Origin: Aminobacterium sp. MB27-C1
GTDB taxonomy: Bacteria > Synergistota > Synergistia > Synergistales > Aminobacteriaceae
Length of the DNA: 64,000 nucleotides
Assembly: GCF_030908405.1 (NCBI RefSeq)
Contig: NZ_CP133089.1
Coordinates: forward strand, 2,046,001-2,110,000
Direction: 5' to 3'
A program made the translations under genes and the position numbers. Shown piece after piece: positions 46,467-64,000 of this stretch; within the stretch, counting starts at the first letter, position 1; every line of letters starts with the position of its first letter. The notes under the pieces were generated by a model. That model was not told where the DNA came from and did not search any database. It saw only the letters and a program-made list of their open reading frames with translations.

Positions 46467-47261
46467 ATGAAAATTTTTAGAAGAAAGAAAAAAATCGGTT
46501 TGGCACTCGGAGGTGGCGCAGTTCTTGGGGCAGCCCATATAGGGGTACTCAAAGTCTTTGACGAATATAATATACCGGTCAGCTATATTGCAGGAACAAG
46601 TATCGGAGCCGTTATCTCTGCTTTTTTTGCTTTCGATAAAGGATGGCAAGAGATCGAGAAGATAGCGAAAGGGCTCAATTGGCTCGATATATCTGCTATC
46701 TCTCCATCGCAATTTGGCCTAGGCCTGCTTTCTAATAAAAAACTCGGCAAATTTATAGTAGATAATCTTGGAGATGTGTCCTTTGATGAGGCACATATCC
46801 CCCTAGCAATGATAGCCACTGATATTACGAATGGAGAAAAAGTAGTGTTAAAAAAAGGGAATGTAGCGACTGCCGTAATGGCAAGCACGTGCATTCCCGG
46901 TATTTTTGCACCTGTCGAAATAGATAACCGCCTTCTCGTTGATGGCGAACTTGTTGAAAATGTTCCGGTGACACCCTTAAAAGAGATGGGGGCTAATTTC
47001 ATTATCGGTGTTGACCTCTTTGCCAAATTCAAACAAAAGAGACCAGAAAACATTATAGAAGTGCTATTGAAATCTTTTCATATCTCTCTGCAAACAGCTA
47101 CAAAATTGCAAACGGAAGAAGCCAATATTCTTATCAGGCCCGACCTCTCCCCTTTCAATACGTTCTCCGTTGAGCAAACCGATGCCTTAATTGAAATAGG
47201 TTACAAAGAAACCCAAAAAATTTTTACAGAAAAAAATCTCTTCAGCAGGGCTTTTCTATAG
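46467..47261 (+). CDS. Patatin-like phospholipase (RssA-like)
   Basis: A 264-residue patatin-fold hydrolase. Oxyanion loop GGGAVLGAAHIG, nucleophile elbow GTSIG and the dyad Asp in LVDGELVENVP (DGE in place of the usual DGG). Probably hydrolyses membrane lipids or acyl esters in the cytoplasm. Confidence 0.88.
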   Translation: MKIFRRKKKIGLALGGGAVLGAAHIGVLKVFDEYNIPVSYIAGTSIGAVISAFFAFDKGWQEIEKIAKGLNWLDISAISPSQFGLGLLSNKKLGKFIVDNLGDVSFDEAHIPLAMIATDITNGEKVVLKKGNVATAVMASTCIPGIFAPVEIDNRLLVDGELVENVPVTPLKEMGANFIIGVDLFAKFKQKRPENIIEVLLKSFHISLQTATKLQTEEANILIRPDLSPFNTFSVEQTDALIEIGYKETQKIFTEKNLFSRAFL

Positions 47262-47488
47262 CTTCCAATCAATAGATTGTTGCCTTGGTAATTTTCTAGA
47301 ATCTTTTTTAATTAATTATGATAGTATTTAATATAAACGTACGATATTTAAAGTTATTAAAAACTGTTAACCTTCATAATTATTAAATTCAACAACTTAT
47401 TCTAGTCTGCAATTCTCTTCTATCCAGCATTCTTCTACTCACTCTATAGAGAATGATATAAAAATACATCGTGATAAGGAGCGTAAAA

Positions 47489-49768
47489 ATGCATTCAAAA
47501 TCTCGAAAAGTATTAATGCTTTGTAATGTGGGAATTTCTGCAATGTATAATTTTTTCTCCCGTAATGATGATCCTCAAAAGGAAAAAAAAATAGTTGATA
47601 AAATAACAAATTGTTATGAATGTCGCAAAAAGGAAATGCAAGATAAAACATCTTTCCCCTTTCAAGATTTCGCCAATGACGTAATTAAGCAGCTTCATCC
47701 TGAAAAACAATCTACACTAACGGAAGATTTTTTATGCGGCAATGACAATCTCAAAGAAAAAGACCTACGTAAAGAGCATTATCCATCTGCTGAATGCCAA
47801 AGTATTGTGGGATGGCTCTTAGATAATGCAAATAAAAACGATCAAAGGATGGATCTTACCATTTATTTCTTTCCTTCAAAAGAATCGGTTGAATCTAAAT
47901 TTACGGCAGGATTTAATCATTTATTCCTAGAAAGTAAAGGAATGTCACTGGTTTTTCCAAATTTAAATGTGAATTGTAAAATACATCCACTAGACATACA
48001 AGTTAGAACAACTGAAAATTTTTTTAAAAGCGTTGATTTGCTATATAAAGAATATGAAAACATAAAAAAGGAATATGAAGGGAAAAATGAAAATATCGAA
48101 ATAATTATTAATAGCACCGGGGGATATAAATCCATCTCTGCTTATGCTTCGCTGTACGGTCAAATTAACAACATCCCATTGATTTATACATTTGAAAAGG
48201 AAACACGAAGCATAGAACTCACATCTCTTCCTATTTCATATGCTATAGGTGCTATGGATGAAGAGATATCTATGCTACGAGGATTAAACAAAATAGACCC
48301 AACTTATCGAAGTGAGTTAAAGAAAAAGGGAAATCTTCCACGCTGGATAGAAAGTCTTTTTCTTGGAGAATCAAACTCTAACCTCATTGACATACTCATA
48401 AATCAATACGACAGTGGGCATTATAAATTAACAGGAGTAGGAACGGGACTTATCAACCGATTAAGCGAAAAGAACGCTCCTCTTGGCTTTTATTTTAAAG
48501 AACTCGTAACAGGCATATGGAGTGAACTCTGGATAGGAGATCAGATACCAGAAACAGTAGAACATTCTCGTCGCCATTCTAAACGGCTTATGGAAATAGC
48601 GGAAAATTTTTTCCGTAGTGCCGAAACATTTTTCCATACAATGCAACTTGATGAAGACTTTCCCCTAGCACTTTTAACAGCAGCTATCTATCTTCATGAT
48701 ATTGGACACACAGCTGCCATATTTCCTGTAGATCCTCAAGAAAAAGTCCAAGGACATTTTCCATTGGGAATGTTTCCTTCAGCAGTAAGAGAAATACATC
48801 ATCTTCTTTCATATGAATTAATAAAGTTTAAAAGCAATGACTTATTTCCGCCTCATGATAGTTTTGATAATAAATCAAACACAATTCTAGAAGACATAAA
48901 GAGAGCAGTTCCCTTTGTATGCGCATACCACAGAGGTTACACTCCACTAAGAAAAAATCTAAATTTAGAGGAATTTAAAAAAAGCGGGAAAAAAACCATT
49001 TACGAAATTGCAAGTTTTTTAAACGAAGAAAAATTTGAAATGAGTTTAAAATCTCTAGCAGAACAAATTGAGAACAAAGATTTTTCAGAAAAACAAAAAA
49101 AACAAATCATTAAAGTGACAGCATTGCTTCGACTAGTTGATGCTTGTGATATGCAATCAGACAGAACGGGGAGCAAAACATTTCTTAATGCTCGACTTAA
49201 GCGTACACAAACTGAGGCTAAAGCGCTATGGACTCAACTAGAACATCTACTCGAAATTCTCTCTGAAAACGACAAAGAAAGAACGGACTTAGAAAAGCTT
49301 ATTAACTACATAAAAACAATAAGAAAAGCTGGAGAAAGTTTCTCTCCTCAAGATGCTATTAACGGCACATTAAACCCCAAAACACAAAAAGACATTGATG
49401 AGACAACTAAAGAGCTATATCCATTAATTTTTCAAGTGTTAAAAGATACTAGAGAAAATCAATCTCTCAACCAGTTATTTGAAAACCCTAAAACGTCACA
49501 AATAGTATTTATATTGTCTCTTATAAATCGAATAGCTTTTAAATGGGAACAATTTATCCATTTCTATAAACACCGCGCTATTGATTTTGTTTTACCTGTA
49601 TCTAACGATACAAACAATGGAATAGATATCCAAATTTTGGGGAACAATAACGAACTCTTAAAAAAAGCCAAAAAAGAGATTGATAAAGAGTACGCTGCAG
49701 TAAAAGACGTATTAGAAGAACTCTCTTTTACTGTAAAAACACAGTGCCATAAAGGAGGCGTGAAATAA
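47489..49768 (+). CDS. CARF-HD ancillary protein of the type III-B CRISPR system
   Basis: A 759-residue protein with no close match to a named Cas family. The N-terminal 245 residues form a CARF domain of the Csm6/Csx1/APE2256 kind: KVLMLCNVGIS first strand and INSTGGYKSISAYASLYGQ near residue 207, then IPLIYTFEK. The second half has an HD hydrolase: VEHSRRHSKRL (near 357), YLHDIGHT (near 400), REIHHLLSYE and VCAYHRGYTP (near 480), and RLVDACDMQSDR (near 552), giving the H-HD-H-H-D metal site. No HEPN RxxxxH pair is apparent. The start is the ATG at 47489 (AGGAG 8 nt before). It ends 1 nt before cmr1. Expected to be switched by cyclic oligoadenylate; whether HD cuts nucleic acid, a nucleotide or the messenger itself is open. 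Confidence 0.8.
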   Translation: MHSKSRKVLMLCNVGISAMYNFFSRNDDPQKEKKIVDKITNCYECRKKEMQDKTSFPFQDFANDVIKQLHPEKQSTLTEDFLCGNDNLKEKDLRKEHYPSAECQSIVGWLLDNANKNDQRMDLTIYFFPSKESVESKFTAGFNHLFLESKGMSLVFPNLNVNCKIHPLDIQVRTTENFFKSVDLLYKEYENIKKEYEGKNENIEIIINSTGGYKSISAYASLYGQINNIPLIYTFEKETRSIELTSLPISYAIGAMDEEISMLRGLNKIDPTYRSELKKKGNLPRWIESLFLGESNSNLIDILINQYDSGHYKLTGVGTGLINRLSEKNAPLGFYFKELVTGIWSELWIGDQIPETVEHSRRHSKRLMEIAENFFRSAETFFHTMQLDEDFPLALLTAAIYLHDIGHTAAIFPVDPQEKVQGHFPLGMFPSAVREIHHLLSYELIKFKSNDLFPPHDSFDNKSNTILEDIKRAVPFVCAYHRGYTPLRKNLNLEEFKKSGKKTIYEIASFLNEEKFEMSLKSLAEQIENKDFSEKQKKQIIKVTALLRLVDACDMQSDRTGSKTFLNARLKRTQTEAKALWTQLEHLLEILSENDKERTDLEKLINYIKTIRKAGESFSPQDAINGTLNPKTQKDIDETTKELYPLIFQVLKDTRENQSLNQLFENPKTSQIVFILSLINRIAFKWEQFIHFYKHRAIDFVLPVSNDTNNGIDIQILGNNNELLKKAKKEIDKEYAAVKDVLEELSFTVKTQCHKGGVK

Positions 49769-49769
49769 A

Positions 49770-51068
49770 TTGCCACGAACAATAAAAACCTTAGCTCCTC
49801 AATTGCCTAAATTAGCCCCTAATAACGATAATTACATTAAAAAAAGCTACGACATTACCGTCGTAACCCCCCTCTTTGGTGGTGGAGTTGAAGCTGGTAA
49901 AGTTGATACGAAGCATCCTATTCGTGAAACCTCTATTCGAGGGCAACTGCGTTTCTGGTGGAGAGCCACCGTAGGGCAAAGATATGAAACACCTGAAAAG
50001 CTAGCAGAAGCAGAGAGTGAGCTATGGGGATCAACGGAAAAAGCAAGCAAAGTAAGGGTAAAAGTAACAAAAACGGATAAATTGTCTTATAGAAATCATG
50101 ATAAAAATTATAATTTCGATCAGAATTCCCCTAAATTATATGCTCTTTTTTCTGCAAAACAAAATAAGAACAATATTGCCAAAGAGGGTTTTACTTTTAA
50201 TTTGGAAATCGCTTTGGAAAAAAGGATTAATATCGACTCTCCCCAAGATGCCCCCGATCAACACAAAAAAAATTCAGAAGATATTTTAAAAGCACTAAAA
50301 GCCTGGGTAAATTTTGGGGGAATAGGCGCCAGAACTCGAAGGGGATGCGGGGCTCTTTATTGTCGCGAGCTTTCACCCTCAGAAAACGAAGACATTTTAG
50401 CATGGCTAAAAACAAACTTCGGAGAATATTTGAACTCTAAGAAAACACGCCCTTGGCCCACTATGGCTCACACTATAATTGCTAAAAAATCAAATCCCAT
50501 GGAGAACATACAAGCGTGGGAAAATGTTATTTCTTTATATAAGAGTTTTCGCCAAGGAAAGCACTTTAGACGTAATGAAGGTCAAGAAAGAAACAATCCA
50601 GAGCACTCACGCTGGCCAGAACCTGACTCAATTCGAAAGATAGCAACGGCCCTCAAAAGTAACCCAACTGACATCGATAAACTGGTTGTTTCCGCCGCTT
50701 TCGGCCTGCCTATCGTAACCAAGTTTAAAGACAAAGGAGATCCTGAAGAAACAACTCTATACCCTATATACAAAAAAGAGCAAAAAGAACGCATGGCAAG
50801 CTCTCTTATTCTAAAGCCCCTTGCTATTTCTTATCATAAAGGTATCCCTATTGTAGTTCAACTTCGTGCCCCCTTACCAGAAACTTTAAAGATAGAGGGA
50901 GAAAAAGAAATTAGCTATTCTGTACCAATCCCAGACGCTAACGTTCCTCATCAGGCGACCAAATATCATAACTCTCCTATGGGGGCAGACTGCTTCAATA
51001 GCGGAAAGGCTCTGGAGGCTTTTATATCTTATATGAAAGAAAACGAGTTTGCGGAGGTGGAAGCATGA
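49770..51068 (+). CDS. cmr1: Type III-B RAMP protein Cmr1
   Basis: Cas7-like subunit at the head of the Cmr complex, near the 3' end of the crRNA. YDITVVTPLFGGGVEAGKVD and the Cmr1 signature RETSIRGQLRFWWRA are clear; the C-terminal glycine-rich GGIGARTRRGCGALY is the RAMP loop. Start TTG at 49770 with AAAGGAGG upstream; translationally linked to the CARF-HD gene before it and to cmr2 (ATGA overlap). Confidence 0.95.
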   Translation: MPRTIKTLAPQLPKLAPNNDNYIKKSYDITVVTPLFGGGVEAGKVDTKHPIRETSIRGQLRFWWRATVGQRYETPEKLAEAESELWGSTEKASKVRVKVTKTDKLSYRNHDKNYNFDQNSPKLYALFSAKQNKNNIAKEGFTFNLEIALEKRINIDSPQDAPDQHKKNSEDILKALKAWVNFGGIGARTRRGCGALYCRELSPSENEDILAWLKTNFGEYLNSKKTRPWPTMAHTIIAKKSNPMENIQAWENVISLYKSFRQGKHFRRNEGQERNNPEHSRWPEPDSIRKIATALKSNPTDIDKLVVSAAFGLPIVTKFKDKGDPEETTLYPIYKKEQKERMASSLILKPLAISYHKGIPIVVQLRAPLPETLKIEGEKEISYSVPIPDANVPHQATKYHNSPMGADCFNSGKALEAFISYMKENEFAEVEA

Positions 51069-52882
51069 ACTTCGACAAATATTTATTTAACTTTTCAATA
51101 GGCCCCGTCCAACCATTTATTGCCGCTGCGAGAAGAACGAGAGATCTATGGTTTGGTTCTCAACTTCTTTCGGAACTCAGTTTTATTGCTGCTAAAACTA
51201 TTAGCGAAACTGGAGGAGAACTCATCTTCCCCCACCCTAATGTTCTTGAATTTGCGGATAAATCAGAGATCAACGTAGCAAATATCATTTTGGCTGAAAT
51301 TCCAAAAGAAGGCAAAACACCACAGCAAATGGTAGAAAAAACTGAAAATGCAGTTAAAGAGAAGTGGAAAGAATGTGCAAAGAAAGTCTTCGAAAAGTAT
51401 CAAGAAATAATTGACCAGGAAATATGGGATTCCCAAATCAACGACGCTTTGGAATTTTTTGCAGCATGGGTTCCCATTTATAACAACGACTATAAAGCGG
51501 CAAGGGATAGACTGAATGAAATTTTTGCCGCTCGCAAAAATAGCAGAGATTTCAATCAACCTTCTTTAAATGCTAATGAACGCTACCTTGAAAAATCCCC
51601 ACTAGACGGACGAAATGAAACAATTCTCGATACAAATAGTGGGAAATCTTTTGACCCCGAAAAACTCCCAGAAGAAATTCAACGTCAACTTCGCTTAAAG
51701 AAAAATGAATTTCTAGATGCTATAGGTATGATAAAAAGGGGGTCAGAAATAAAACAATTTCCTTCTGTTGATAGAGTCGCAATTGATCCCTGGATTCGCC
51801 ATATTGCAAAAAACTCGAACAGCACCAAGAAACTAGAAGAAATCAAAAAAATTTGCGAAAAACTTCCACAAGTGATTAAAGTGAAAAGCCAAGCTTATAA
51901 AACTTTTCCTTTTGAAGGCTCTATTCTCTATCTCAACCGTCATAAGAGTATAAAAGAAGAACTCAGCTTTAAAAAGGACTCCATTGAAGAAAAAAAGCTA
52001 GAAGAGATAGCTAAAATACTCGAAAAACTCTATAAAGTAACATACAGACCTTCGTCTTATTTTGCAATGATAAAAGCAGATGGAGACAAAATGGGCAATA
52101 CTATATCGAAAATTACAACTAAAGAAGGACTCAAAAACTTCTCTTCTGCCCTCTCTGACTTTGCTTTAGTAGCACCCCAAATTGTTACAGAAAAAGGAGG
52201 AGCTTGTATTTATGCGGGAGGCGACGACGTCTTTGCCTTCTTACCTCTTGATACGTGCCTATCTTGCGCCCGAAAACTCAGAGAAGAATTTAAGAAAAAA
52301 ATGAGTAAAATAAAAAAAGATTCAACTCTCTCGGTAGGCATCTCTATTGGTCACTTTTTAGAACCAATGGACTCTCTTATCCATTTCGCTAATCAGGCTG
52401 AAAAAATGGCCAAAGAGGGCGAAAAAAAAGAAGATGAACGAAATGGGCTCGCTATAACAGTTCAAACCCGAGGCAATGCCCCCATCGGAGTTAGAGAGCA
52501 ATGGAAAGATGAAAAAGATGCAGAGTCTCTAGATAATAGAATTATGTCTTGGAGAAACGCCTTCAAAAATAACTCTTTGCCGTTCAATTTCCCTTATAGC
52601 CTGCACATTTTAGAGGAATACTATTTAAATTGGAGCAATGAAACGCTTGTCAATAAAGCCTTACCTGCAGATCTATTAAGACTTTTCAAGCGGTCTACTA
52701 AATCAAATACGCAGAAAGGGGAAAATACCATGTCAAACAACGATAAGGAAAAAATCACTAAAATACTAGAAAACACCTATTCTGTAGACTGTCTAAAAAA
52801 GTTAACGAATGAAATACTTATTGCGAGGCATATAGAACGCACGCTCTCTTTTCCTACCCCAAGGGATGGTGGAGATCAATGA
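51065..52882 (+). CDS. cmr2: Cmr2 / Cas10 without HD nuclease domain
   Basis: Large subunit that makes cyclic oligoadenylates. The first recognisable motif, FSIGPVQPFIAAARRTRDLW, begins at residue 9; in full Cmr2 proteins this follows an HD domain of roughly 200 residues, so HD is missing. Two palm domains are present: SSYFAMIKADGDKMG near 338 and the catalytic GGDD in YAGGDDVFAF near 385. 605 residues is correspondingly short. The missing DNase domain means the complex relies on Cmr4 RNA cleavage and cOA signalling. Confidence 0.94.
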   Translation: MNFDKYLFNFSIGPVQPFIAAARRTRDLWFGSQLLSELSFIAAKTISETGGELIFPHPNVLEFADKSEINVANIILAEIPKEGKTPQQMVEKTENAVKEKWKECAKKVFEKYQEIIDQEIWDSQINDALEFFAAWVPIYNNDYKAARDRLNEIFAARKNSRDFNQPSLNANERYLEKSPLDGRNETILDTNSGKSFDPEKLPEEIQRQLRLKKNEFLDAIGMIKRGSEIKQFPSVDRVAIDPWIRHIAKNSNSTKKLEEIKKICEKLPQVIKVKSQAYKTFPFEGSILYLNRHKSIKEELSFKKDSIEEKKLEEIAKILEKLYKVTYRPSSYFAMIKADGDKMGNTISKITTKEGLKNFSSALSDFALVAPQIVTEKGGACIYAGGDDVFAFLPLDTCLSCARKLREEFKKKMSKIKKDSTLSVGISIGHFLEPMDSLIHFANQAEKMAKEGEKKEDERNGLAITVQTRGNAPIGVREQWKDEKDAESLDNRIMSWRNAFKNNSLPFNFPYSLHILEEYYLNWSNETLVNKALPADLLRLFKRSTKSNTQKGENTMSNNDKEKITKILENTYSVDCLKKLTNEILIARHIERTLSFPTPRDGGDQ

Positions 52883-54117
52883 CAAAAAGCCCTAAAACTA
52901 TAAAAATAACTCCCAGAGACCCTTTAGTTGCAAGGGACGGTCGGCCTTTTTCCGAAGGGAAACGCATGAAATCGCTTGATTGGATTCGGCCATCAGTAGT
53001 AATTGGCTCGTTACGTACTCTTGTTGGGAAGTTAAACCAAAAAGGATTTAATAAAAATACAATAAAGGAACTCAAAGATATTTCTATAACTGGGCCTTTT
53101 CCTTATGTGAATAATAAATTATATTTTCCCACCCCTTTAGATATGGTGTTAAAGGAAGAAGGAACTCAAAACTCCGAAGGAGAAAAATCTACTTATACAA
53201 GTATCCATCAACTAAAACCAGGCAAATATAATGAAGGGGAGGGCTCAACTCTTCCACGATACTTATCACCAGCAATGCTTTATCCAAAAGAACAATTCAA
53301 GCCATTAAAAAGACCTGCGTTCTGCTCTAAAAATCAAATGACTCAATGGCTTTTAACCAAAGACATCAAAACATCTGAATTGAATAAATTACTTCAATAT
53401 AATAAAAAAGATGGTTCTTTTTTTAATAATAACAACGTTATCAACTTTCCTAAAAAAGAAGAACGGATTCACCTTAAAATATGTCCTGAATCTGGATCTG
53501 CAGAAGAAGGGAAGCTCTTTTCATCTATTGGTCTTGATATGAACATACATGACAATAATGGGGACATTCTCCCTCTTGAAATGTTAGCCAAATTAGATAC
53601 AGATATTCCCCAAAATGAATTATTTAAAATCATTTCTAAGCTTAATCATATCCATCCTTGCGGAGGAGAGAGAAGACTTGTCAAATGGAATATATGTAAC
53701 AACTTAGAAAAAATATGGGAATGCCCTAAAGAAATACAAGAAGCCATTAAAAGAGAAAAGAAACTTCGAATGGTTCTGGCAACACCTGCTATTTTTGAAA
53801 ATGGATGGTTGCCTGGTTGGCTTACAATCAAAGAAGAACATGAAACAAAATGCATAGGTACCATTCCAGGAACAGAAATAGAAGTTCAACTCGTATCTGT
53901 GGTTAATGAAAGATGGCAGCCTCTTTCCGGTTGGTCTTACGAACGTAATAAACCCAAGCCAATATCTCGAATGGTTCCCGCTGGAAGTGTTTATTTCTTT
54001 AAAATTACAAACTCTGTTTCTGATGAAGATATCGCTAACATGTGGCTTCAATCTGTATGCGATGATACGCAACTAAAAAAAGACGGATTTGGTCTTTCTC
54101 TTTGGGGAATTTGGTAG
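52879..54117 (+). CDS. cmr3: Type III-B RAMP protein Cmr3
   Basis: Cas5-like subunit that binds the crRNA 5' tag. ITPRDPLVARDGRPFSEG and RPSVVIGSLRTLVG are the Cmr3 N-terminal signature. 412 residues, overlap ATGA with cmr2. Confidence 0.94.
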   Translation: MTKSPKTIKITPRDPLVARDGRPFSEGKRMKSLDWIRPSVVIGSLRTLVGKLNQKGFNKNTIKELKDISITGPFPYVNNKLYFPTPLDMVLKEEGTQNSEGEKSTYTSIHQLKPGKYNEGEGSTLPRYLSPAMLYPKEQFKPLKRPAFCSKNQMTQWLLTKDIKTSELNKLLQYNKKDGSFFNNNNVINFPKKEERIHLKICPESGSAEEGKLFSSIGLDMNIHDNNGDILPLEMLAKLDTDIPQNELFKIISKLNHIHPCGGERRLVKWNICNNLEKIWECPKEIQEAIKREKKLRMVLATPAIFENGWLPGWLTIKEEHETKCIGTIPGTEIEVQLVSVVNERWQPLSGWSYERNKPKPISRMVPAGSVYFFKITNSVSDEDIANMWLQSVCDDTQLKKDGFGLSLWGIW

Positions 54118-54147
54118 TCTCAAAACAAAAAATAGGAGATGAAATTC

Positions 54148-55071
54148 ATGTCAGAAAAAAACGATAAAACCATTAATTTTTGGATTCATGCACTCTCGGC
54201 AATTCATGTAGGCACGGGAAAAGGTGCCGGATATATTGATCTTCCAATATCACGAGAGAAAGTAACCAATTGGCCTTATATTCCAGGAAGTACAATTAAG
54301 GGAGTTATTGCCGATTACTATGATGCAAGTGACAGCGGGGATAGACGCGAAAAGGATAAAAAGAAAAAAGCAGCATTCGGTATCGCTGGAGATAATAATA
54401 GTTCTGCTGGTTCACTTGTATTTACCGATGCTCGAATCGTATGTCTTCCCGTTCAAAGCCTTTATGGCACTTTCGCATGGTGTACTTCAGAACTCGTTCT
54501 ACGCTCTCTTTCAAGAGATCTAGAATGGGGCAAACTTTGTTTAGAAGAAGAAATTCCTGTCGCGCCAGAAAATAAAGTTCTTGTTATTGAAGGCTCAAGT
54601 CTCATTGAAAAAAGCAACAAAAAAATATATTTACAGGAACTAGATATGGATACCCAAATTTGCGAAAAAACTGAAAGATTAGCTGAAAAAATTGCAAATC
54701 TCGTGTTCCCTGATGATGAGGAATGGCGAAAGAAATTTAAAGAGAGATTCACAATACTCCCAGAAAATGTATTTAACTATTTTTCCGAAATGGGAACTCA
54801 GGTAGAAGCCAAAATTCGAATAGATCCTAACACAAAAGTTGTAGATAAAGAACAAGGTGGACTATGGTACCAAGAAGCCCTTCCTGCTGAAACCATTCTA
54901 ACTGGGATGGTATGGTGCGACAAAGTTTATGAGGAAAACATCCAAGCCAAAGAGCTTACAGACAAATATTGCACAGGTAAAAAAACGATACAAATTGGCG
55001 GAAAAAACACAACGGGACAAGGAAGAATAACGTTATCCTTCATGGAAGCTAAAAATAAAAAGGAGGATTAA
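54148..55071 (+). CDS. cmr4: Type III-B backbone RNase Cmr4 (Cas7)
   Basis: Backbone subunit repeated along the crRNA that cleaves target RNA. The loop HVGTGKGAGYIDLPISRE holds the catalytic Asp (D before LPISRE); WPYIPGSTIKGVIADYY follows; GGKNTTGQGRI is the C-terminal Gly-rich loop. The ATG at 54148 has AGGAG 9 nt upstream; an ATG at 54139 abuts that site and is unlikely. Confidence 0.95.
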   Translation: MSEKNDKTINFWIHALSAIHVGTGKGAGYIDLPISREKVTNWPYIPGSTIKGVIADYYDASDSGDRREKDKKKKAAFGIAGDNNSSAGSLVFTDARIVCLPVQSLYGTFAWCTSELVLRSLSRDLEWGKLCLEEEIPVAPENKVLVIEGSSLIEKSNKKIYLQELDMDTQICEKTERLAEKIANLVFPDDEEWRKKFKERFTILPENVFNYFSEMGTQVEAKIRIDPNTKVVDKEQGGLWYQEALPAETILTGMVWCDKVYEENIQAKELTDKYCTGKKTIQIGGKNTTGQGRITLSFMEAKNKKED

Positions 55072-55074
55072 GCC

Positions 55075-55473
55075 GTGGTTGAAGATAAAACTCCCACAAC
55101 CTTAGAACAAAAATGGGCGCAAAGAGCTTTCTGCGCTGTTGATAAAGTGAGCCATAAAAGCGACTCTGGGGATTTCAAAAAGAGTGAGTATTTAAGTTTC
55201 GCAAAATCATTTCCTAACCTTATTCATTCTTGTGGGTTAATACAAGCTCTCGCTTTTGCGCAATCAAAAAACAAAACTGTTTTTCTTGCTGATCTCAGTT
55301 TTGTCATGAATGGTGAGAAAAAATACGAGCTGATTATAGAAGAAAGTAGAAAAGCAACCATTACGAAATATCTTCAACTAAGCCGCCATACTCTTGCTGC
55401 CGCTGAATGGATAAAGCGTTATGCTGAAGCTCTGTTAAAAGAAGATGGTGATCATAATGACTCTTGCAGTTAG
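55075..55473 (+). CDS. cmr5: Type III-B small subunit Cmr5
   Basis: A 132-residue all-helical protein: EQKWAQRAFCAVDKV near the start is characteristic, with a C-terminal LSRHTLAAAEWIKRYAEAL helix. GTG start after AAGGAGG, 3 nt past cmr4. Confidence 0.92.
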   Translation: MVEDKTPTTLEQKWAQRAFCAVDKVSHKSDSGDFKKSEYLSFAKSFPNLIHSCGLIQALAFAQSKNKTVFLADLSFVMNGEKKYELIIEESRKATITKYLQLSRHTLAAAEWIKRYAEALLKEDGDHNDSCS

Positions 55474-56317
55474 AGAAGAAATTAATAACGATTTTAAAAA
55501 TATTGATAAAATTGATAAAATTGATAAATTAGAATGGGCTCACCCTGGGCTAATACTGCAAAGATACCTTATAGAGCAAAAAGATGACACGGATTCGTCA
55601 ACTAACGAAAGAGATAAATTATTCACCAGAATTATCTATGCCCAAAAAAAAGCACAAGACGTCTATAAGATGGCCTATGAACGATGGGAAAAATCTTTTG
55701 CTACAGAAACAATAAACGTATCTGGACTTATTTTTTCCACTCTCGGCAAACTAATTTGCGGACTTGGCTTAGCTAGCTCTATTGAGACAGGAATAACTCT
55801 TCATCACACGTATGGTTTCCCCTTTATTCCGGGCAGCAGCTTAAAAGGCATTGCTTCTTCTTATTATTGTGATCACTATTTGAGTAAAGAAAATCCTTGT
55901 TTTAAAGAAAACAAGGAGTATTTCAATATTCTATTTGGATCAAATGAAAGTGCCGGTCATATTATCTTTCACGATGCATGGCTAAAACCAGGCAGTGATT
56001 TTCTCGAAAAAGATATTATGACACCCCATCATAGAGATTACTACACCCAAAAAGGCAAGGAAGATGCTGCTCCAACAGACTTTGACTCTCCAGTTCCAGT
56101 TCCATTTTTATCTGTTAGCGCTAACACAAAATTTCTTGTTATTGTAAGCTGCTATGATTCTTCAGAAAACGGTAAAAAATGGACTAATCTTGCTTTGGAA
56201 ATACTCGAGGAAGCTCTTCTTAAATTAGGCGTTGGTGGAAAAACCAGAAGTGGTTATGGACAAATGAAAAAAGTCAATGAGTGGAATCCTCCTAAACGTG
56301 ATCCCTACGCAAAATGA
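55457..56317 (+). CDS. cmr6: Type III-B RAMP protein Cmr6
   Basis: Cas7-like subunit at the 3' end of the complex. YGFPFIPGSSLKGIASSYY, SAGHIIFHDAW and the Gly-rich loop GVGGKTRSGYGQM. Overlaps cmr5; ATGs at 55445 and 55457 are both possible. The N-terminus has a triple IDK repeat from a 9-nt tandem repeat. The frame continues after the TGA for 66 more codons (next entry). Confidence 0.92.
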   Translation: MTLAVREEINNDFKNIDKIDKIDKLEWAHPGLILQRYLIEQKDDTDSSTNERDKLFTRIIYAQKKAQDVYKMAYERWEKSFATETINVSGLIFSTLGKLICGLGLASSIETGITLHHTYGFPFIPGSSLKGIASSYYCDHYLSKENPCFKENKEYFNILFGSNESAGHIIFHDAWLKPGSDFLEKDIMTPHHRDYYTQKGKEDAAPTDFDSPVPVPFLSVSANTKFLVIVSCYDSSENGKKWTNLALEILEEALLKLGVGGKTRSGYGQMKKVNEWNPPKRDPYAK

Positions 56318-56525: not shown

Positions 56526-56573
56526 GTTGTGTCGACCCCCAATAGCGTTAAAATCCCGGGGGATCGACACAAC
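56526..56573 (+). repeat. Long inverted repeat after cmr6, copy 1
   Basis: GTTGTGTCGA + CCCCC pairs with GGGGG + A + TCGACACAAC (15 bp with a bulged A). No T run follows. A near-copy lies at 63561-63608 after cas2. Confidence 0.8.
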
Positions 56574-56694: not shown

Positions 56695-59600
56695 ATTTCG
56701 ATACTTCCTATAAGGGATGGAAACTCTTTTGTCTGCTCCGTATTCTGGAGGGTGGACTGAATTTCGATACTTCCTATAAGGGATGGAAACTCACTTTTGA
56801 TCAACTTAATAACGATACTATCCGTTATTTCGATACTTCCTATAAGGGATGGAAACATGCTAGCGCACCTACACGAGGACCAAATTCCTCAAAATTTCGA
56901 TACTTCCTATAAGGGATGGAAACCATCTATTTATGCTGGCGGTACACAACCGGATTTAAATTTCGATACTTCCTATAAGGGATGGAAACAATTCGAAGCC
57001 AATCGAAATTGTCGACGCGTATCCGATTTCGATACTTCCTATAAGGGATGGAAACGCACAGCGTGCCCAACGTGCAGCGAGTGCGACAGTCCATTTCGAT
57101 ACTTCCTATAAGGGATGGAAACTAAAAAGATAGAGGAGGAATAAAAAATGGAAGGATAATTTCGATACTTCCTATAAGGGATGGAAACAACCTATTTTAA
57201 ATGAAGCAGGCGAACAGCTTTCAGATTTCGATACTTCCTATAAGGGATGGAAACACTGCATCGAACAAGCAGGGCTAACGCCAAACGATGCATTTCGATA
57301 CTTCCTATAAGGGATGGAAACAAAGAATCATAGCCGCTGACACGATTTCTTCGTCTGATTTCGATACTTCCTATAAGGGATGGAAACATGTAGGCACTCA
57401 AACTATCATTGAGCATATTGCACATTTCGATACTTCCTATAAGGGATGGAAACTAGTTCAGGCTACAGAAGCCGTAACATCTTCTGGAGCCATTTCGATA
57501 CTTCCTATAAGGGATGGAAACGAAGGTTCCGCGAATGCTTCAGAAAATATCGGCACCGATTTCGATACTTCCTATAAGGGATGGAAACTAAATTCGTGAA
57601 CCCCCTCCCCCATAAGGGTGGCTGATTTCGATACTTCCTATAAGGGATGGAAACAAACGATAAGTTCTGTATCCACGCCTTACCAGAGCCCAGATTTCGA
57701 TACTTCCTATAAGGGATGGAAACGCAAGACACGGAGGAGGAACGACAATGAATGAAGTGATTTCGATACTTCCTATAAGGGATGGAAACCCACCTTTACG
57801 CTACTCACGGATGGGGCGGCGGGCGATTTCGATACTTCCTATAAGGGATGGAAACTCGGCTTTAATAAGGTCGATTATGGCTACGAGATGGATTTCGATA
57901 CTTCCTATAAGGGATGGAAACCCCACACCGTGCAACGCCATGTGGCAGGCGTGGCACAAATTTCGATACTTCCTATAAGGGATGGAAACTATACAAAATT
58001 GAAAGGGGGAGAAGGGCATAAGAGAATTTCGATACTTCCTATAAGGGATGGAAACCACCCACAGGCTGGGCAATCCCACCCGTTCCGATCTATTTCGATA
58101 CTTCCTATAAGGGATGGAAACTTGAAAGTAGGAGGTAGGGCGGGAAATGACCAGAAAATTTCGATACTTCCTATAAGGGATGGAAACGGAAATCTAACAG
58201 AGCTTGAATGGCCATATCGCTTAATTTCGATACTTCCTATAAGGGATGGAAACATTACAAATGGGCGAGGGGCGAAGAAGACATAGAGAATTTCGATACT
58301 TCCTATAAGGGATGGAAACTGTTACTCATTTTTATTCCTCCTTAATTTGGTCTCATATTTCGATACTTCCTATAAGGGATGGAAACGGGGAATCCCGTTG
58401 ATTTCCCCTACTTGCTGCTCCACATTTCGATACTTCCTATAAGGGATGGAAACCAGGATTCTAGGGGGTGCAAACATGAGACAAGATGAATTTCGATACT
58501 TCCTATAAGGGATGGAAACTAAAAAACACGGTAAGCGGAGATATCCCAAGGAGGGATTTCGATACTTCCTATAAGGGATGGAAACATACTTTTTCGCGGT
58601 CAATCTGGATGACAACGAATCATTTCGATACTTCCTATAAGGGATGGAAACGGGGGGTAATCGAATGGCACAGCCCTCTGAATCTGCCATTTCGATACTT
58701 CCTATAAGGGATGGAAACAACCAAATGGGAGGGATTCCTGGTAGCAAAGCTGAAATTTCGATACTTCCTATAAGGGATGGAAACTTATACATCACACGTG
58801 TAATAATGCAATGGGCATAAAATTTCGATACTTCCTATAAGGGATGGAAACTTCGCTCAAGGCGAAGATCTATACATAGAAATAACAGATTTCGATACTT
58901 CCTATAAGGGATGGAAACATAAAATAACGTTCCCGGAAGAGACGGTGTCTAGCCCATTTCGATACTTCCTATAAGGGATGGAAACTTCTCGAGGCGGGAT
59001 GAATTGAGAGGAAGCGATGACATTTCGATACTTCCTATAAGGGATGGAAACGGGAGTTTATGCTCGTTTGTAACATTCAAAAAATCGATTTCGATACTTC
59101 CTATAAGGGATGGAAACTAGGAAATATAGGCTGATTATTTGGTGCTTTAGCTAATTTCGATACTTCCTATAAGGGATGGAAACTGTTTCTCCTTGTATAG
59201 ACTTCATAAATGCTATCTTATTTCGATACTTCCTATAAGGGATGGAAACCACATGAAGATTCACCTGGTACTTGTTCAACATTGATTTCGATACTTCCTA
59301 TAAGGGATGGAAACTTACATCAGCTATATCTTCTATCCATTGCATCAACTATTTCGATACTTCCTATAAGGGATGGAAACAATCTTAAAGCTGGTAATTC
59401 ATATTTGCTAATAGCATTTCGATACTTCCTATAAGGGATGGAAACTCCCCAGACCAACATAATATCCTCGAAAAAAGTGTACATTTCGATACTTCCTATA
59501 AGGGATGGAAACTAAAAAAAGCAGCAGATGTAGGAGATGCTGTAGCTAATTTCGATACTTCCTATAAGGGATGGAAACAATCGTTAAGATCGCTTTCTAC

Positions 59601-60635
59601 GTAGGGGGTATCTAATTTCGATACTTCCTATAAGGGATGGAAACAGTATCGCAAAATAGAGGTCAGTAGCACTCTTTGACATTTCGATACTTCCTATAAG
59701 GGATGGAAACAATCGTTAAGATCGCTTTCTACGTAGGGGGTATCTAATTTCGATACTTCCTATAAGGGATGGAAACAGTATCGCAAAATAGAGGTCAGTA
59801 GCACTCTTTGACATTTCGATACTTCCTATAAGGGATGGAAACACATAAATCCAGGGAAAAGTGCTTCTTTTGTAGCAAATTTCGATACTTCCTATAAGGG
59901 ATGGAAACTCAATATCAAACTTGGGGATCTCCTTTTCTAGAGGTAATTTCGATACTTCCTATAAGGGATGGAAACCGAAGCTCATGATAGAAGCCTCTGA
60001 AATTATGGAAATTTCGATACTTCCTATAAGGGATGGAAACAGAAAAGGAGCGGATTACATCCGCTCCTCGTAAGTTATTTCGATACTTCCTATAAGGGAT
60101 GGAAACTTCGTCTTGTCGCAGCGATAAGGCTAATTGAATCATCATTTCGATACTTCCTATAAGGGATGGAAACGGAAACTAACTGATATTACTCGTGTGA
60201 CGCAGTGTCATTTCGATACTTCCTATAAGGGATGGAAACTATTGTCTCTCATCACTTTAGTAAGAGTCTCCAAAGCATTTCGATACTTCCTATAAGGGAT
60301 GGAAACCAAGTGAGGATGAAACAGCGATTCAAAATATTACTTATTTCGATACTTCCTATAAGGGATGGAAACGCTACTATTGAAAGAGCACTTCAGACCT
60401 CTGTAGATGATTTCGATACTTCCTATAAGGGATGGAAACGAAGTGTCACTTTCCCGACGATATAAAAAAGTCCCATATTTCGATACTTCCTATAAGGGAT
60501 GGAAACGAAAAGAGATGGGGCTTGAAACCATAAACGAACTTCATTTCGATACTTCCTATAAGGGATGGAAACTTCCGTGCCAGATCTCGCGAACGATTTC
60601 TGATAGTCTCATTTCGATACTTCCTATAAGGGATG
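56695..60635 (+). CRISPR. CRISPR array 1: 60 repeats, 59 spacers
   Basis: 30-nt repeat beginning ATTTCGATAC and ending GGGATGGAAAC, with spacers of about 36-38 nt and a period of about 66 nt. I count 59 full repeats from 56695 to the one at 60543, plus a final repeat at 60611 whose last 5 nt are changed (trailer end). Leader on the left, so transcription is rightward. The ending ATGGAAAC would form an 8-nt 5' tag after Cas6 cleavage. Repeat family resembles type I-B/III repeats. Confidence 0.98.
59579..59842 (+). repeat. Tandem duplication of a two-spacer unit in array 1
   Basis: Spacers at 59579-59614 and 59645-59680 recur exactly at 59711-59746 and 59777-59812, in the same order. The unit is 132 bp (two spacers and two repeats), duplicated head to tail. 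Confidence 0.95.
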
Positions 60636-60716: not shown

Positions 60717-60777
60717 AAACAGAGAATTCCGATATTAATTATTGAACTACAACAAAAAATCAGGAGTGAATGCTTTA

Positions 60778-61551
60778 ATGAAAATTAATCTTATTTTTGG
60801 TGTTATTGGAGATAAAATTTTACAGCTTAAACGCAAACATCAGTATCAAATTCAAGCTATGGTATACAACCTTCTCGACAAAGAGTATGCTCGTTTTTTA
60901 CACAATGAAGGGTTTATTTATGAAGGGAAACGTCATTTTAAATTATTTTGTTTCTCAAAACTTTTTGGGAACGGCCCTATAAAACGAGAAAAAGACTTTT
61001 TATATATTCCTTCCCCCGTGAAACTTTCAATAACCTCTCCTGTTAACGCCATTCTTGAACAACTTGCTAATAACGCTCTTTCCCTGGGAGAAATAAGACT
61101 AGGAAATAATTTCCTTCAATGTAGAGAAGTAACTGTTGAAAACCCCCAAGCAAAATCAGAAGAGATACTAGTACAAACCCTCTCTCCAATAGTCTGCTAC
61201 TCTACCCTTAAAAAATATGACGGAAGCAATTTTACTCACTATCACTCTCCTTACGACCAGGAATTCGGAGAACAAATACATGCAAATCTCATAAAAAAAT
61301 TCACTCTAATAACATCAGAAAAAAGTGAACTAAATCAAACAGTAAAAATAGAAAAATTGGGACGGATATGGGAATCGATAAGATTTTTTAGCCCTGAAGA
61401 CAACAGACCAATCAAGGGGTGGAACGGCAACTTTCGACTTACAGGTTCTCAAGAACTCTTACAAACAGCTTTAGACGCTGGTCTCGGTGCAAAAAATAGC
61501 TCTGGATTCGGATGTGTTGAACTTGTAGAACGAGAAAGGAGGTATAAATAA
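60778..61551 (+). CDS. cas6: CRISPR RNA endoribonuclease Cas6
   Basis: Processes the array transcript inside each repeat. 257 residues; tandem ferredoxin-like RAMP fold with the C-terminal Gly-rich loop GLGAKNSSGFGCVE. An N-terminal HQYQIQAMVYNLL stretch has the typical Cas6 helix with a His. The start is ATG 60778 (GGAG upstream), although the frame is open from a TTG at 60742. It precedes a fragmentary cas8b and cas4-cas1-cas2, the usual type I-B order. Confidence 0.92.
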   Translation: MKINLIFGVIGDKILQLKRKHQYQIQAMVYNLLDKEYARFLHNEGFIYEGKRHFKLFCFSKLFGNGPIKREKDFLYIPSPVKLSITSPVNAILEQLANNALSLGEIRLGNNFLQCREVTVENPQAKSEEILVQTLSPIVCYSTLKKYDGSNFTHYHSPYDQEFGEQIHANLIKKFTLITSEKSELNQTVKIEKLGRIWESIRFFSPEDNRPIKGWNGNFRLTGSQELLQTALDAGLGAKNSSGFGCVELVERERRYK

Positions 61552-61794
61552 TTGGGATTTATTAACGCCACCTATGAATTAGGTAAATTAGTTTCAAATA
61601 AATTAAACGACCCTGAATTTATAGATATCGAAAGTTATTTACAACTCCCCATGCCCGTAATCGAAGACAAAGAAAGATCAGGTAGAGTAATTAGAATATG
61701 GCTTAATGTAACAGACAGCACCGCAGAATGTATCAGAGAACCAACAGGGGTAGCAACCCCAGTGGATTCCAATGATGACGGCTTCATTCTCTGA
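61552..61794 (+). pseudogene. 80-codon ORF resembling the N-terminus of type I-B Cas8b (Csh1/TM1802)
   Basis: TTG start behind GGAGG. The sequence MGFINATYELGKLVSNKL, the acidic ESYLQLPMPVIED and then GRVIRIWLNVTDS look like the opening of the Cas8b/Csh1 family, which normally has 500-700 residues; the frame stops after 80. cas7, cas5 and cas3, which should follow, are absent. I read it as what remains after an internal deletion, with cas4 starting inside its 3' end. A small functional protein cannot be excluded. Confidence 0.55.
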
Positions 61795-62290
61795 ATCCCC
61801 TCGTTTAGGAGGAACCCTTGTCTGGTACTTTACTATATGCAAACGAGAGGTGTGGCTCATGGCTCGAGGAGTAGAACCAGACAGAGATGACGAATTTCTC
61901 GCTTTGGGGCGACTTATAGATAAGACAACTTATAATCGAGATCGACATTGCATTGACTTCGGAAATAGCAAATTCGACATCATGCGCGAAGAAAAAGGAA
62001 CATTAGTAGTAGGAGAAATTAAAAAAAGTAGTCGTTCCATTGATGCCGCACGATTACAACTAGCACACTACCTTTATGAACTCCAAAAAAATGGAGTCGA
62101 AGCTAGAGGGGAATTATTATTCCCAAAAGAGAAAAAACGCGAAGAGGTGCTACTCTCTGAAGAACTAAAAACGCATCTTGACCAAGTTTATCAAGAGATT
62201 ATTGCAATAACATCTCTTGAATCCCCTCCTTGTGCGAAAAAATGTAAGTACTGTAGAAACTGCGCTTACAATGAATTGTGTTGGAGCTGA
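61772..62290 (+). CDS. cas4: CRISPR-associated exonuclease Cas4
   Basis: RecB-like nuclease that trims prespacers. Fe-S Cys: TICKREVW at the N-terminus and CAKKCKYCRNCAYNELC at the C-terminus; nuclease residues in FDIMREEKG and VVGEIKKSSRS (E-x-K). 172 residues is the family length. It overlaps the cas8b-like ORF by 23 nt. Confidence 0.94.
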   Translation: MMTASFSESPRLGGTLVWYFTICKREVWLMARGVEPDRDDEFLALGRLIDKTTYNRDRHCIDFGNSKFDIMREEKGTLVVGEIKKSSRSIDAARLQLAHYLYELQKNGVEARGELLFPKEKKREEVLLSEELKTHLDQVYQEIIAITSLESPPCAKKCKYCRNCAYNELCWS

Positions 62291-62295
62291 TAAAA

Positions 62296-63294
62296 ATGGG
62301 AAAAACACTCTATGTACTTTCGTCAGGAGAACTTAAACGAAAAGAAAATACCATTATTATAGAAGGTTTAGAGGGTAGAAAATTTATTCCTGTAGAAACA
62401 ACAGACGAAATGCTTATTTTCGGAGAAGTAGATTTAAACAAGCGTTTTTTAGAATTTTGTACTGCCAATAAAGTAATGCTGCACTTCTTTAATCACTATG
62501 GATATTATCAAGGAACATTTTACCCTCGTGAACACATGAATTCAGGAGCTGTAATTCTTGCACAAGCTAAACATTGTCTTGATGACTGTAGAAGGCTTCT
62601 TATAGCTAAAAAGTTTGTAACAGGTGCTATAGAAAACATGAAGAAAGCATTACAATATTATTCTCGACGTGGAAATATTGAGCTCGACTCCATAATTGAA
62701 AAACTTACTGTTTTTAGTAATTATGCAAAAGAACAAATTGGGATATCAGAACTTATGGGGATAGAAGGCAATGCACGAGATTGTTATTACACAGCGTTTG
62801 ATCTAATAACGGGTGGAGGTTCCTTCTCTATGAAAAAAAGAAGTAGAAGACCCCCTCAAAATCGTATAAATGCTCTTATAAGTTTCTTAAATTCTATGTG
62901 CTATGTCACAACTTTAGCACAAATTTACAAAACACATATTGACCCCCGCATAGGTTTTCTTCACGAAACTAACTTCCGCCGTTTCAGCTTAAACTTAGAT
63001 ATAGCAGAAATATTTAAACCAATAATTGTAGACAGACTCATTTTTTCTCTTTTAAACAAGAAAGAAATTCAAGCGAAGCACTTCGGAGCTCAGTCTGGGG
63101 GAGGAATATTCCTCTCAGAAAAAGGGCGGCCTATAGTTTTAAAAGCATGGGAAGAACGTTTAAATTCTACTATTGAACATCCTCGTCTTAAAAGAAATGT
63201 AAGTTATCGAAGCCTTATTAGAATGGAAGCGTACAAAATTGAAAAGCATATACTCCACGATGAGGAGTATCAACCTTTTGCCATGAGGTGGTAA
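62296..63294 (+). CDS. cas1: CRISPR integrase Cas1 (type I-B-like)
   Basis: Integrates spacers with Cas2. Catalytic Glu in LMGIEGNARDCYY, His in IGFLHETNFRR and Asp in SLNLDIAEIFKPIIVD. 332 residues. The ATG at 62296 (GGAG 9 nt before) is preferred over an upstream ATG overlapping cas4. Confidence 0.97.
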   Translation: MGKTLYVLSSGELKRKENTIIIEGLEGRKFIPVETTDEMLIFGEVDLNKRFLEFCTANKVMLHFFNHYGYYQGTFYPREHMNSGAVILAQAKHCLDDCRRLLIAKKFVTGAIENMKKALQYYSRRGNIELDSIIEKLTVFSNYAKEQIGISELMGIEGNARDCYYTAFDLITGGGSFSMKKRSRRPPQNRINALISFLNSMCYVTTLAQIYKTHIDPRIGFLHETNFRRFSLNLDIAEIFKPIIVDRLIFSLLNKKEIQAKHFGAQSGGGIFLSEKGRPIVLKAWEERLNSTIEHPRLKRNVSYRSLIRMEAYKIEKHILHDEEYQPFAMRW

Positions 63295-63297
63295 GCC

Positions 63298-63561
63298 ATT
63301 TTTGTCTTAATGATTTATGATGTAGGTGTAAAACGAGTCAATAAAGTTTTAAAAATAGGTCGAAAATATTTAAGCTGGGTACAAAACTCTGTCTTAGAGG
63401 GAGAGCTTACTCCGGCAACTTTTACTGCTCTTAAAATTGAAGTAAACAAAATCATTAAAGACGATTACGATAGCGTAATCTTTTATGTATGGAGAACAGA
63501 ACGATATACTTCAAGAGAAATTATGGGCAAAGAAAAAGGTGGCGCGAGTATCTTTGTATGA
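63298..63561 (+). CDS. cas2: CRISPR adaptation protein Cas2, apparent ATT start
   Basis: 87-residue Cas2 if read from ATT 63298: the first strand FVLMIYDVGVKRVNKVLK is then complete. The first ATG (63310) would cut into this strand, and the ribosome site GAGGTGG (63285-63291) is 6 nt from the ATT but 18 nt from that ATG. Conserved catalytic-type Asp in IYDVG and the EGELT segment are present. Confidence 0.9.
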   Translation: MFVLMIYDVGVKRVNKVLKIGRKYLSWVQNSVLEGELTPATFTALKIEVNKIIKDDYDSVIFYVWRTERYTSREIMGKEKGGASIFV

Positions 63562-63608
63562 TTGTGTCGACCCCCAATAGCGCTAAAATCACGGGAGATC
63601 GACACAAT
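63561..63608 (+). terminator. Hairpin/terminator after cas2 (copy 2 of the inverted repeat)
   Basis: ATTGTGTCGA pairs with TCGACACAAT; about 44 of 47 nt match the hairpin at 56526-56573. Here a run of six T follows, so it works as a terminator for the cas operon. Confidence 0.75.
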
Positions 63609-63730: not shown

Positions 63731-64000
63731 ATTTCGATACTTCCTATAAGGGATGGAAACGCGTATACTATTTAGAATTTTACCGAATATACCATAATTT
63801 CGATACTTCCTATAAGGGATGGAAACTCATGAGGTACATTGCCTCTTTGTCCACGTGTGGATCATTTCGATACTTCCTATAAGGGATGGAAACTTGTTGG
63901 TGCATACGATACCTCTTCAACAAAATAAGATTTCGATACTTCCTATAAGGGATGGAAACACTGTACAGCATCTGCGATAACGCCTGTATCATTTGATTTC
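63731..64000 (+). CRISPR. CRISPR array 2, continues past the window
   Basis: Same 30-nt repeat as array 1 at 63731, 63797, 63864 and 63930, and the first bases of a fifth at 63996. Four spacers visible. Confidence 0.97.

Follow-up and report, generated by a model that had tools for sequence, protein, structure and literature searches.

A CARF-HD protein encoded beside an HD-less Cmr2 in Aminobacterium as a predicted effector of a type III-B CRISPR system

The Cmr locus of Aminobacterium sp. MB27-C1, a member of the phylum Synergistota, raises the question of what an HD domain fused to a CARF domain does beside a Cas10 protein that has no HD domain of its own. The window analysed here is a stretch of 64,000 nucleotides (contig NZ_CP133089.1, positions 2,046,001 to 2,110,000 of the forward strand), and at positions 47489–49768 of its + strand it encodes a 759-residue protein, CARF-HD, whose stop codon ends 1 nt before the TTG start of cmr1 at 49770, behind AAAGGAGG. 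Type III Cas10 proteins make cyclic oligoadenylates that switch CARF proteins. CARF-HD is predicted to be a cyclic-oligoadenylate-activated HD phosphohydrolase effector of the type III-B system, with the CARF domain as a possible self-limiting timer, and the probability of this reading is put at about 0.6. The operon, the domains, the conserved sites and the detection of no other CARF effector were all taken from sequence or structure prediction, and from these we infer activation, substrate and cellular effect.

An alternative GTG start at 47471 would extend CARF-HD to 765 residues. The ATG at 47489 is the likelier start because a ribosome-binding site, AAGGAG, lies immediately 5' of it; residue numbers nevertheless follow the 765-residue form. 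The PADLOC profile CARF7--CARF_HD (PDLC01933) spans residues 12–752 of the 765, including both CARF and HD domains, with an E-value of 2.5e-185, and by this match CARF-HD is a member of an already catalogued class, with which the window's copy has the whole-length match, the CARF-then-HD order and the type III-B locus in common. Pfam placed a Cas_APE2256 CARF domain at residues 106–250 (E 8.8e-12, over the Pfam cut-off) and an HD-CE domain (PF24391) at residues 360–602 (E 3.1e-14, 53.7 bits against a cut-off of 27), consistent with the initial annotation of a CARF and HD protein immediately upstream of cmr1. A chance origin is excluded by the E-values of these profiles together with catalytic residues that are invariant across three phyla. 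No measured activity for the class was found in the literature searched, in keeping with the earlier remark that no settled activity is known for the architecture.

The CARF domain occupies residues ~11–300 (47501–48370). The model of the whole protein gave a mean predicted local distance difference test score (pLDDT) of 79.5, and the best alignment of its CARF domain was with the ring nuclease Sis0811 (Z 17.0 over 247 residues, root-mean-square deviation (rmsd) 5.0), followed by Cami1 (Z 16.9, 247 residues, rmsd 4.2). Residues S23 and K220 of CARF-HD align with the catalytic S12 and K169 of Sis0811, the residues named in the titles of PDB entries for its S12A and S12G/K169G mutants. S23, within a GxS motif, was kept in 14 of the 15 alignment rows covering the position, and K220, within a TGGxK motif, in 16 of 17 CARF-HD sequences; conservation counts here and below refer to 17 sequences from three phyla. 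Since this Ser/Lys pair of ring nucleases is kept, the CARF domain may slowly degrade its own activator. The Crn1-type ring nucleases Sis0811 and Sso1393 have the same fold and catalytic pair but no effector domain, whereas CARF-HD carries a fused HD domain of 433 residues. Cami1, a CARF-RelE protein activated by cyclic tetra-adenylate (cA4; PDB 8phb, 8phj), has the same type of CARF domain but a RelE effector domain, while the C-terminal half of CARF-HD is HD-CE in 17 of 17 sequences. Cad1, Can2/Card1, Cam1 and Cat1 likewise couple a CARF sensor to a non-HEPN output, although their output domains differ.

The aligned Ser/Lys pair, a ring nuclease as the best CARF match and the genome's lack of a further APE2256-type ring nuclease would also suit a protein that is mainly an off-switch, in which the CARF domain, and perhaps the HD domain, degrades cyclic oligoadenylate without a toxic output. 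This is very unlikely, as the genome would then produce a signal but have no detected CARF effector, and Cami1, which is an effector, matches the CARF domain equally well. The HD domain is moreover conserved above the CARF domain, with pairwise identities of 45% vs 34% and 77 vs 16 invariant positions.

The HD domain, on which the effector reading depends for its output, comprises residues 333–765 (48467–49765). Residues H365, H369, H409, D410, H413, H443, H487, D557 and D560 were invariant in 17 of 17 sequences, as were six arginines and one lysine (R372, R440, R488, R565, R575, R578 and K691). The initial annotation had claimed a full HD metal site, and the candidate ligands for it (H365, H369, H409-D410, H413, H443, H487 and D557) are conserved throughout these sequences. 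All 17 domains match HD-CE, a family for which we know of no tested function. Modelled alone, the HD domain gave a pLDDT of 89.4 and a predicted template modelling score of 0.91. Its nearest fold was domain III of Ppx/GppA (Z 13.7, 193 residues, rmsd 4.0) and the next neighbours were class I (cyclic-nucleotide) phosphodiesterases (Z ~9.9, 215 residues, rmsd 6.0), with sequence identities of 13–17% and 5–12%, respectively; the shared HD fold does not itself show function. The Pfam match to Ppx-GppA_III was weak (22.9 bits, below the cut-off of 27.3). The folds of dGTPase, SAMHD1, Cas3 and HD-GYP were not among the matches listed, which does not imply their exclusion, and a SAMHD1-like protein (2o6i) matched by sequence with an E-value of 0.11 only. 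The invariant Arg and Lys residues beside the metal site, together with the Ppx/GppA and phosphodiesterase fold neighbours, tip the balance slightly away from DNA or RNA and towards a small phosphorylated compound (an NTP, a dNTP or an alarmone-like molecule) as the putative substrate.

The cmr2/cas10 gene (51065–52882, + strand) encodes a protein of 605 residues with GPVQ at residue 13 and GGDD at residue 385. Pfam identified Cmr2_N at residues 7–106 and palm2 at residues 332–456, with no HD match, and Cmr2 relatives that have the HD domain carry ~170–185 additional N-terminal residues bearing an HDP motif. The initial annotation was therefore correct that Cmr2 keeps GGDD and begins at the motif that normally follows the HD nuclease. 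A displaced HD domain of Cmr2 was sought elsewhere in the genome. No second Cas10 was found, the one other Cas10-palm match being weak and read as GGDEF-like, and no stand-alone Cas10-type HD protein turned up. Two Cas3-HD matches in the genome were rejected as the displaced domain, being read as a YhaM-like exoribonuclease (339 aa) and a PgpH-like protein (707 aa).

The HD-less Cmr2 invites the explanation, implied in the initial annotation, that CARF-HD is a cyclic-oligoadenylate-activated DNase or RNase replacing the lost DNase of Cas10. The HD domain is weakly similar to Cas3-type HD nucleases by TIGR01596 (E 7.8e-4) and by the PADLOC Cas3 profile (E 3.6e-5), and a classification from 2025 lists HD-family DNases among the effectors activated by cyclic oligoadenylates (PMC12669027), although no test of this was found. 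The Cas3-type matches are far under the curated cut-offs (19.5 bits against 43.45 for TIGR01596 and 12.0 against 23.1 for PF18019), and profile comparison of the HD domain with the Cas10 HD using hhalign found no similarity (E 0.4), the Cas10 side of this small alignment consisting of four sequences only. The distribution of the two proteins also bears on the replacement. Among Synergistota, Cmr2 proteins are nearly all HD-less, with or without CARF-HD, G014 being a genome whose Cmr2 has the HD domain; at least seven genomes (G093, G020, G049, G035, G044, G059 and G086) have an HD-less Cmr2 without a CARF-HD match, although in G020 CARF-HD may be merely unassembled because the end of a polymerase cassette, described below, sits at a contig edge. 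In the opposite combination, CARF-HD stands beside an HD-containing Cas10 in loci L106, L111 and L171; in L168 CARF-HD is present and the HD motif of Cas10 is mutated. With mismatches in both directions, compensation for a lost Cas10 HD domain could not be upheld as a general rule, and the pairing of CARF-HD with an HD-less Cas10 is not specific. A recognisable HD domain was reported in 39% of 1113 loci, making an HD-less Cas10 ordinary (PMC11229360). A nuclease in place of the Cas10 DNase is possible, though not probable.

CARF-HD is nevertheless associated with Cmr2 as such. Matches to CARF-HD were found in 24 of 188 Synergistota genomes, three of which (G107, G110 and G112) hold a CARF-less HD protein only, leaving 21 genomes with CARF-HD, including fragmentary or decaying copies in G081 and G082. 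Cmr2 was present in 19 of these 21 genomes and in 17 of the 167 others (Fisher p 2.8e-14); the p values given here and below ignore shared ancestry, and draft genomes conceal neighbours. Two variants of Cmr2 were observed among the related loci. In Athalassotoga (L112:12230-13918) the palm motif is AGGED vs AGGDD elsewhere, a change that may affect signal synthesis, although both CARF-HD and a CARF-DUF2103 protein are present. In Pyramidobacter (L031, L032) and in L040, Cmr2 is encoded as two open reading frames (L031:8264-10140, L040:6520-8101), and those systems may therefore be decaying or read through.

Support for the effector reading comes from the cyclase motif kept in Cmr2, from the conserved ligand and catalytic Ser/Lys residues in the CARF domain, and from the invariant metal-ligand candidates of the HD domain. 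On meeting target RNA the Cmr complex would stimulate the GGDD palm of Cmr2 to make a cyclic oligoadenylate, most likely cA4 as judged by the CARF family. Its binding to the CARF domain, with CARF-HD probably present as a dimer, would activate the HD domain, a putative metal-dependent phosphohydrolase of the HD-CE type that would damage or starve the infected cell, while the CARF Ser/Lys pair may slowly remove the activator. The genome is a single contig of 2.43 Mb and 99.95% complete, and CARF-HD is its only APE2256-type CARF protein. No Csx1 or Csm6 was found in it, nor a CARF-RelE protein of the Cami1 type, which is present in most related loci. CARF-HD had been described as the only visible downstream enzyme, and it is the only CARF effector detected in the genome, a finding that speaks for an effector function over that of a helper. 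Its activator and substrate could accordingly be tested here with no second effector to confound the result.

Several points weigh against this reading. The Z scores for Ppx/GppA and the phosphodiesterases do not prove kinship and may reflect only a common helical arrangement, and Foldseek with the HD model returned no match with E < 0.001 in the PDB or among viral models. The weak Cas3-HD matches point towards a nuclease instead. The search of the genome was not exhaustive for non-CARF effectors, so the count of one applies to CARF effectors. In the majority of related loci, where CARF-RelE is encoded as well, CARF-HD could have an accessory role.

The window's copy differs from most of its relatives both in standing without CARF-RelE and in standing without a second set of genes. 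In most relatives the neighbour of CARF-HD is a fused, single-chain RNA polymerase resembling RpoB-RpoC (beta-beta'), of ~1350-1700 aa in Synergistota and 1240-1430 aa in most Thermotogota (examples at L030:2882-7960, L036:4710-9023 and L112:2655-6518), usually followed by an acidic protein of ~300 aa with no family assignment and by an AAA+ protein similar to sigma54 activators or RtcR. The polymerase looks catalytically intact, as it retains the (N/G)ADFDGD motif, the beta GDK.TGR.GNKG motif and the IGERGTQL.MK.F element. A GAYTGA/GAFTGA loop is the signature of sigma54 activators; it was seen in the AAA+ protein of L092:9310-10668 and L168:13713-15011, and most others are without a plain motif.

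In Synergistota the polymerase was found in 15 of the 21 CARF-HD genomes vs 2 of the 167 others (p 1.2e-15), and the two exceptions, G020 and G056, both have it at contig ends. Among 103 Thermotogota genomes, 19 have CARF-HD and 27 the polymerase, with both present in 19 of 19 CARF-HD genomes (p 9.0e-15) and the polymerase without CARF-HD in eight; cas1, cas4, cas6 or CARF genes lie near several of the polymerase-only cases, though not in every stretch examined (L163, L165). In many loci CARF-HD and the polymerase share an operon, their genes lying next to each other or overlapping. Gene order and strand vary between Synergistota and Thermotogota, and some genomes, such as G215, have tens of kilobases between the two genes, indicating that the link is not one frozen operon. 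The genome of the window has housekeeping rpoB and rpoC only and no cassette polymerase. Copies of CARF-HD that lack the polymerase, that of the window among them, are interspersed in the tree with polymerase-linked copies, which requires at least four changes and suggests repeated loss of the polymerase.

This linkage, the shared operons and the scattered polymerase-less copies could mean that the main role of CARF-HD is to assist or regulate a dedicated polymerase and that the window's copy is an orphan surviving polymerase loss. We consider this unlikely, given that the window's copy retains every invariant residue without a polymerase, that polymerase-less copies in L029, L031 and L032 lie directly upstream of cmr1, and that eight Thermotogota genomes keep the polymerase without CARF-HD. 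By a narrow balance we favour CARF-HD as part of a type III response that has its own transcription machine, made up of a polymerase of ~1250-1700 aa, the acidic partner and the AAA+ protein, with the window holding a stand-alone derivative in which CARF-HD would suffice. The polymerase could then sustain transcription of defence genes or CRISPR arrays while the host polymerase is disabled by a phage, or it could be controlled by CARF-HD. If the link, seen in two phyla, is functional, CRISPR immunity would include a transcription enzyme of its own. The literature searched, an incomplete set, yielded no description of such an apparently dedicated polymerase in connection with type III CRISPR. 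The initial annotation thus stands as regards a CARF-HD effector beside an HD-less, cyclase-intact Cmr2, but not as regards compensation, and it had missed the polymerase link of the family.

Viral multisubunit RNA polymerases were considered, and not favoured, as the source of the cassette polymerase. Matches occurred in 46 contigs at 23-42% identity, mostly to ordinary separate subunits with a few fused chains of ~2300 aa, and the partner genes were recognised in none. An alignment query of genome contigs placed the CARF-HD relatives themselves in the three phyla Synergistota, Thermotogota and Caldisericota, where single-sequence queries of the viral and genome collections had returned nothing; the alignment query found none in viral contigs, and none were found on plasmids. 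CARF-less relatives of the HD domain, of 457-460 aa, occur at L048:9362-10744, L049:9343-10716 and L050:1409-2791, and in L048 and L049 a DUF3089 hydrolase gene adjoins them with no Cas10 recognised nearby.

The remainder of the locus is encoded on the same + strand and was assigned through profile matches as cmr1 (49770–51068), cmr3 (52879–54117), cmr4 (54139–55071), cmr5 (55075–55473), cmr6 (55445–56317), cas6 (60742–61551) and cas4 (61772–62290). Putative cas1 (62278–63294) was assigned from its place in the cas6-cas4-cas1-cas2 cluster and its similarity to open reading frames beside cas4 in related loci, and putative cas2 (63310–63561) by position. An 80-aa open reading frame between cas6 and cas4 (61552-61794) matched no family and may be what is left of a type I cas gene. 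Upstream of CARF-HD on the same strand is a patatin-like phospholipase gene (46467-47261; Pfam Patatin E 3.3e-29) with a weak match to defence phospholipase profiles; it was set aside as a candidate effector, as it does not lie beside CARF-HD in the relatives examined.

CRISPR array 1 (56695–60572) contains 59 perfect 30-nt repeats and then a degenerate end repeat, and its spacers gave no match to phage records by megablast. An exact duplication of 132 nt at 59549-59812 leaves two spacers present twice each. The start of array 2 (63731–63959) has four repeats within the window. A palindrome-like element of 46 nt (56527-56572 and 63562-63607) and a stretch of 116 nt are repeated before both arrays with identities of 93% and 91%, and are probably duplicated leaders.

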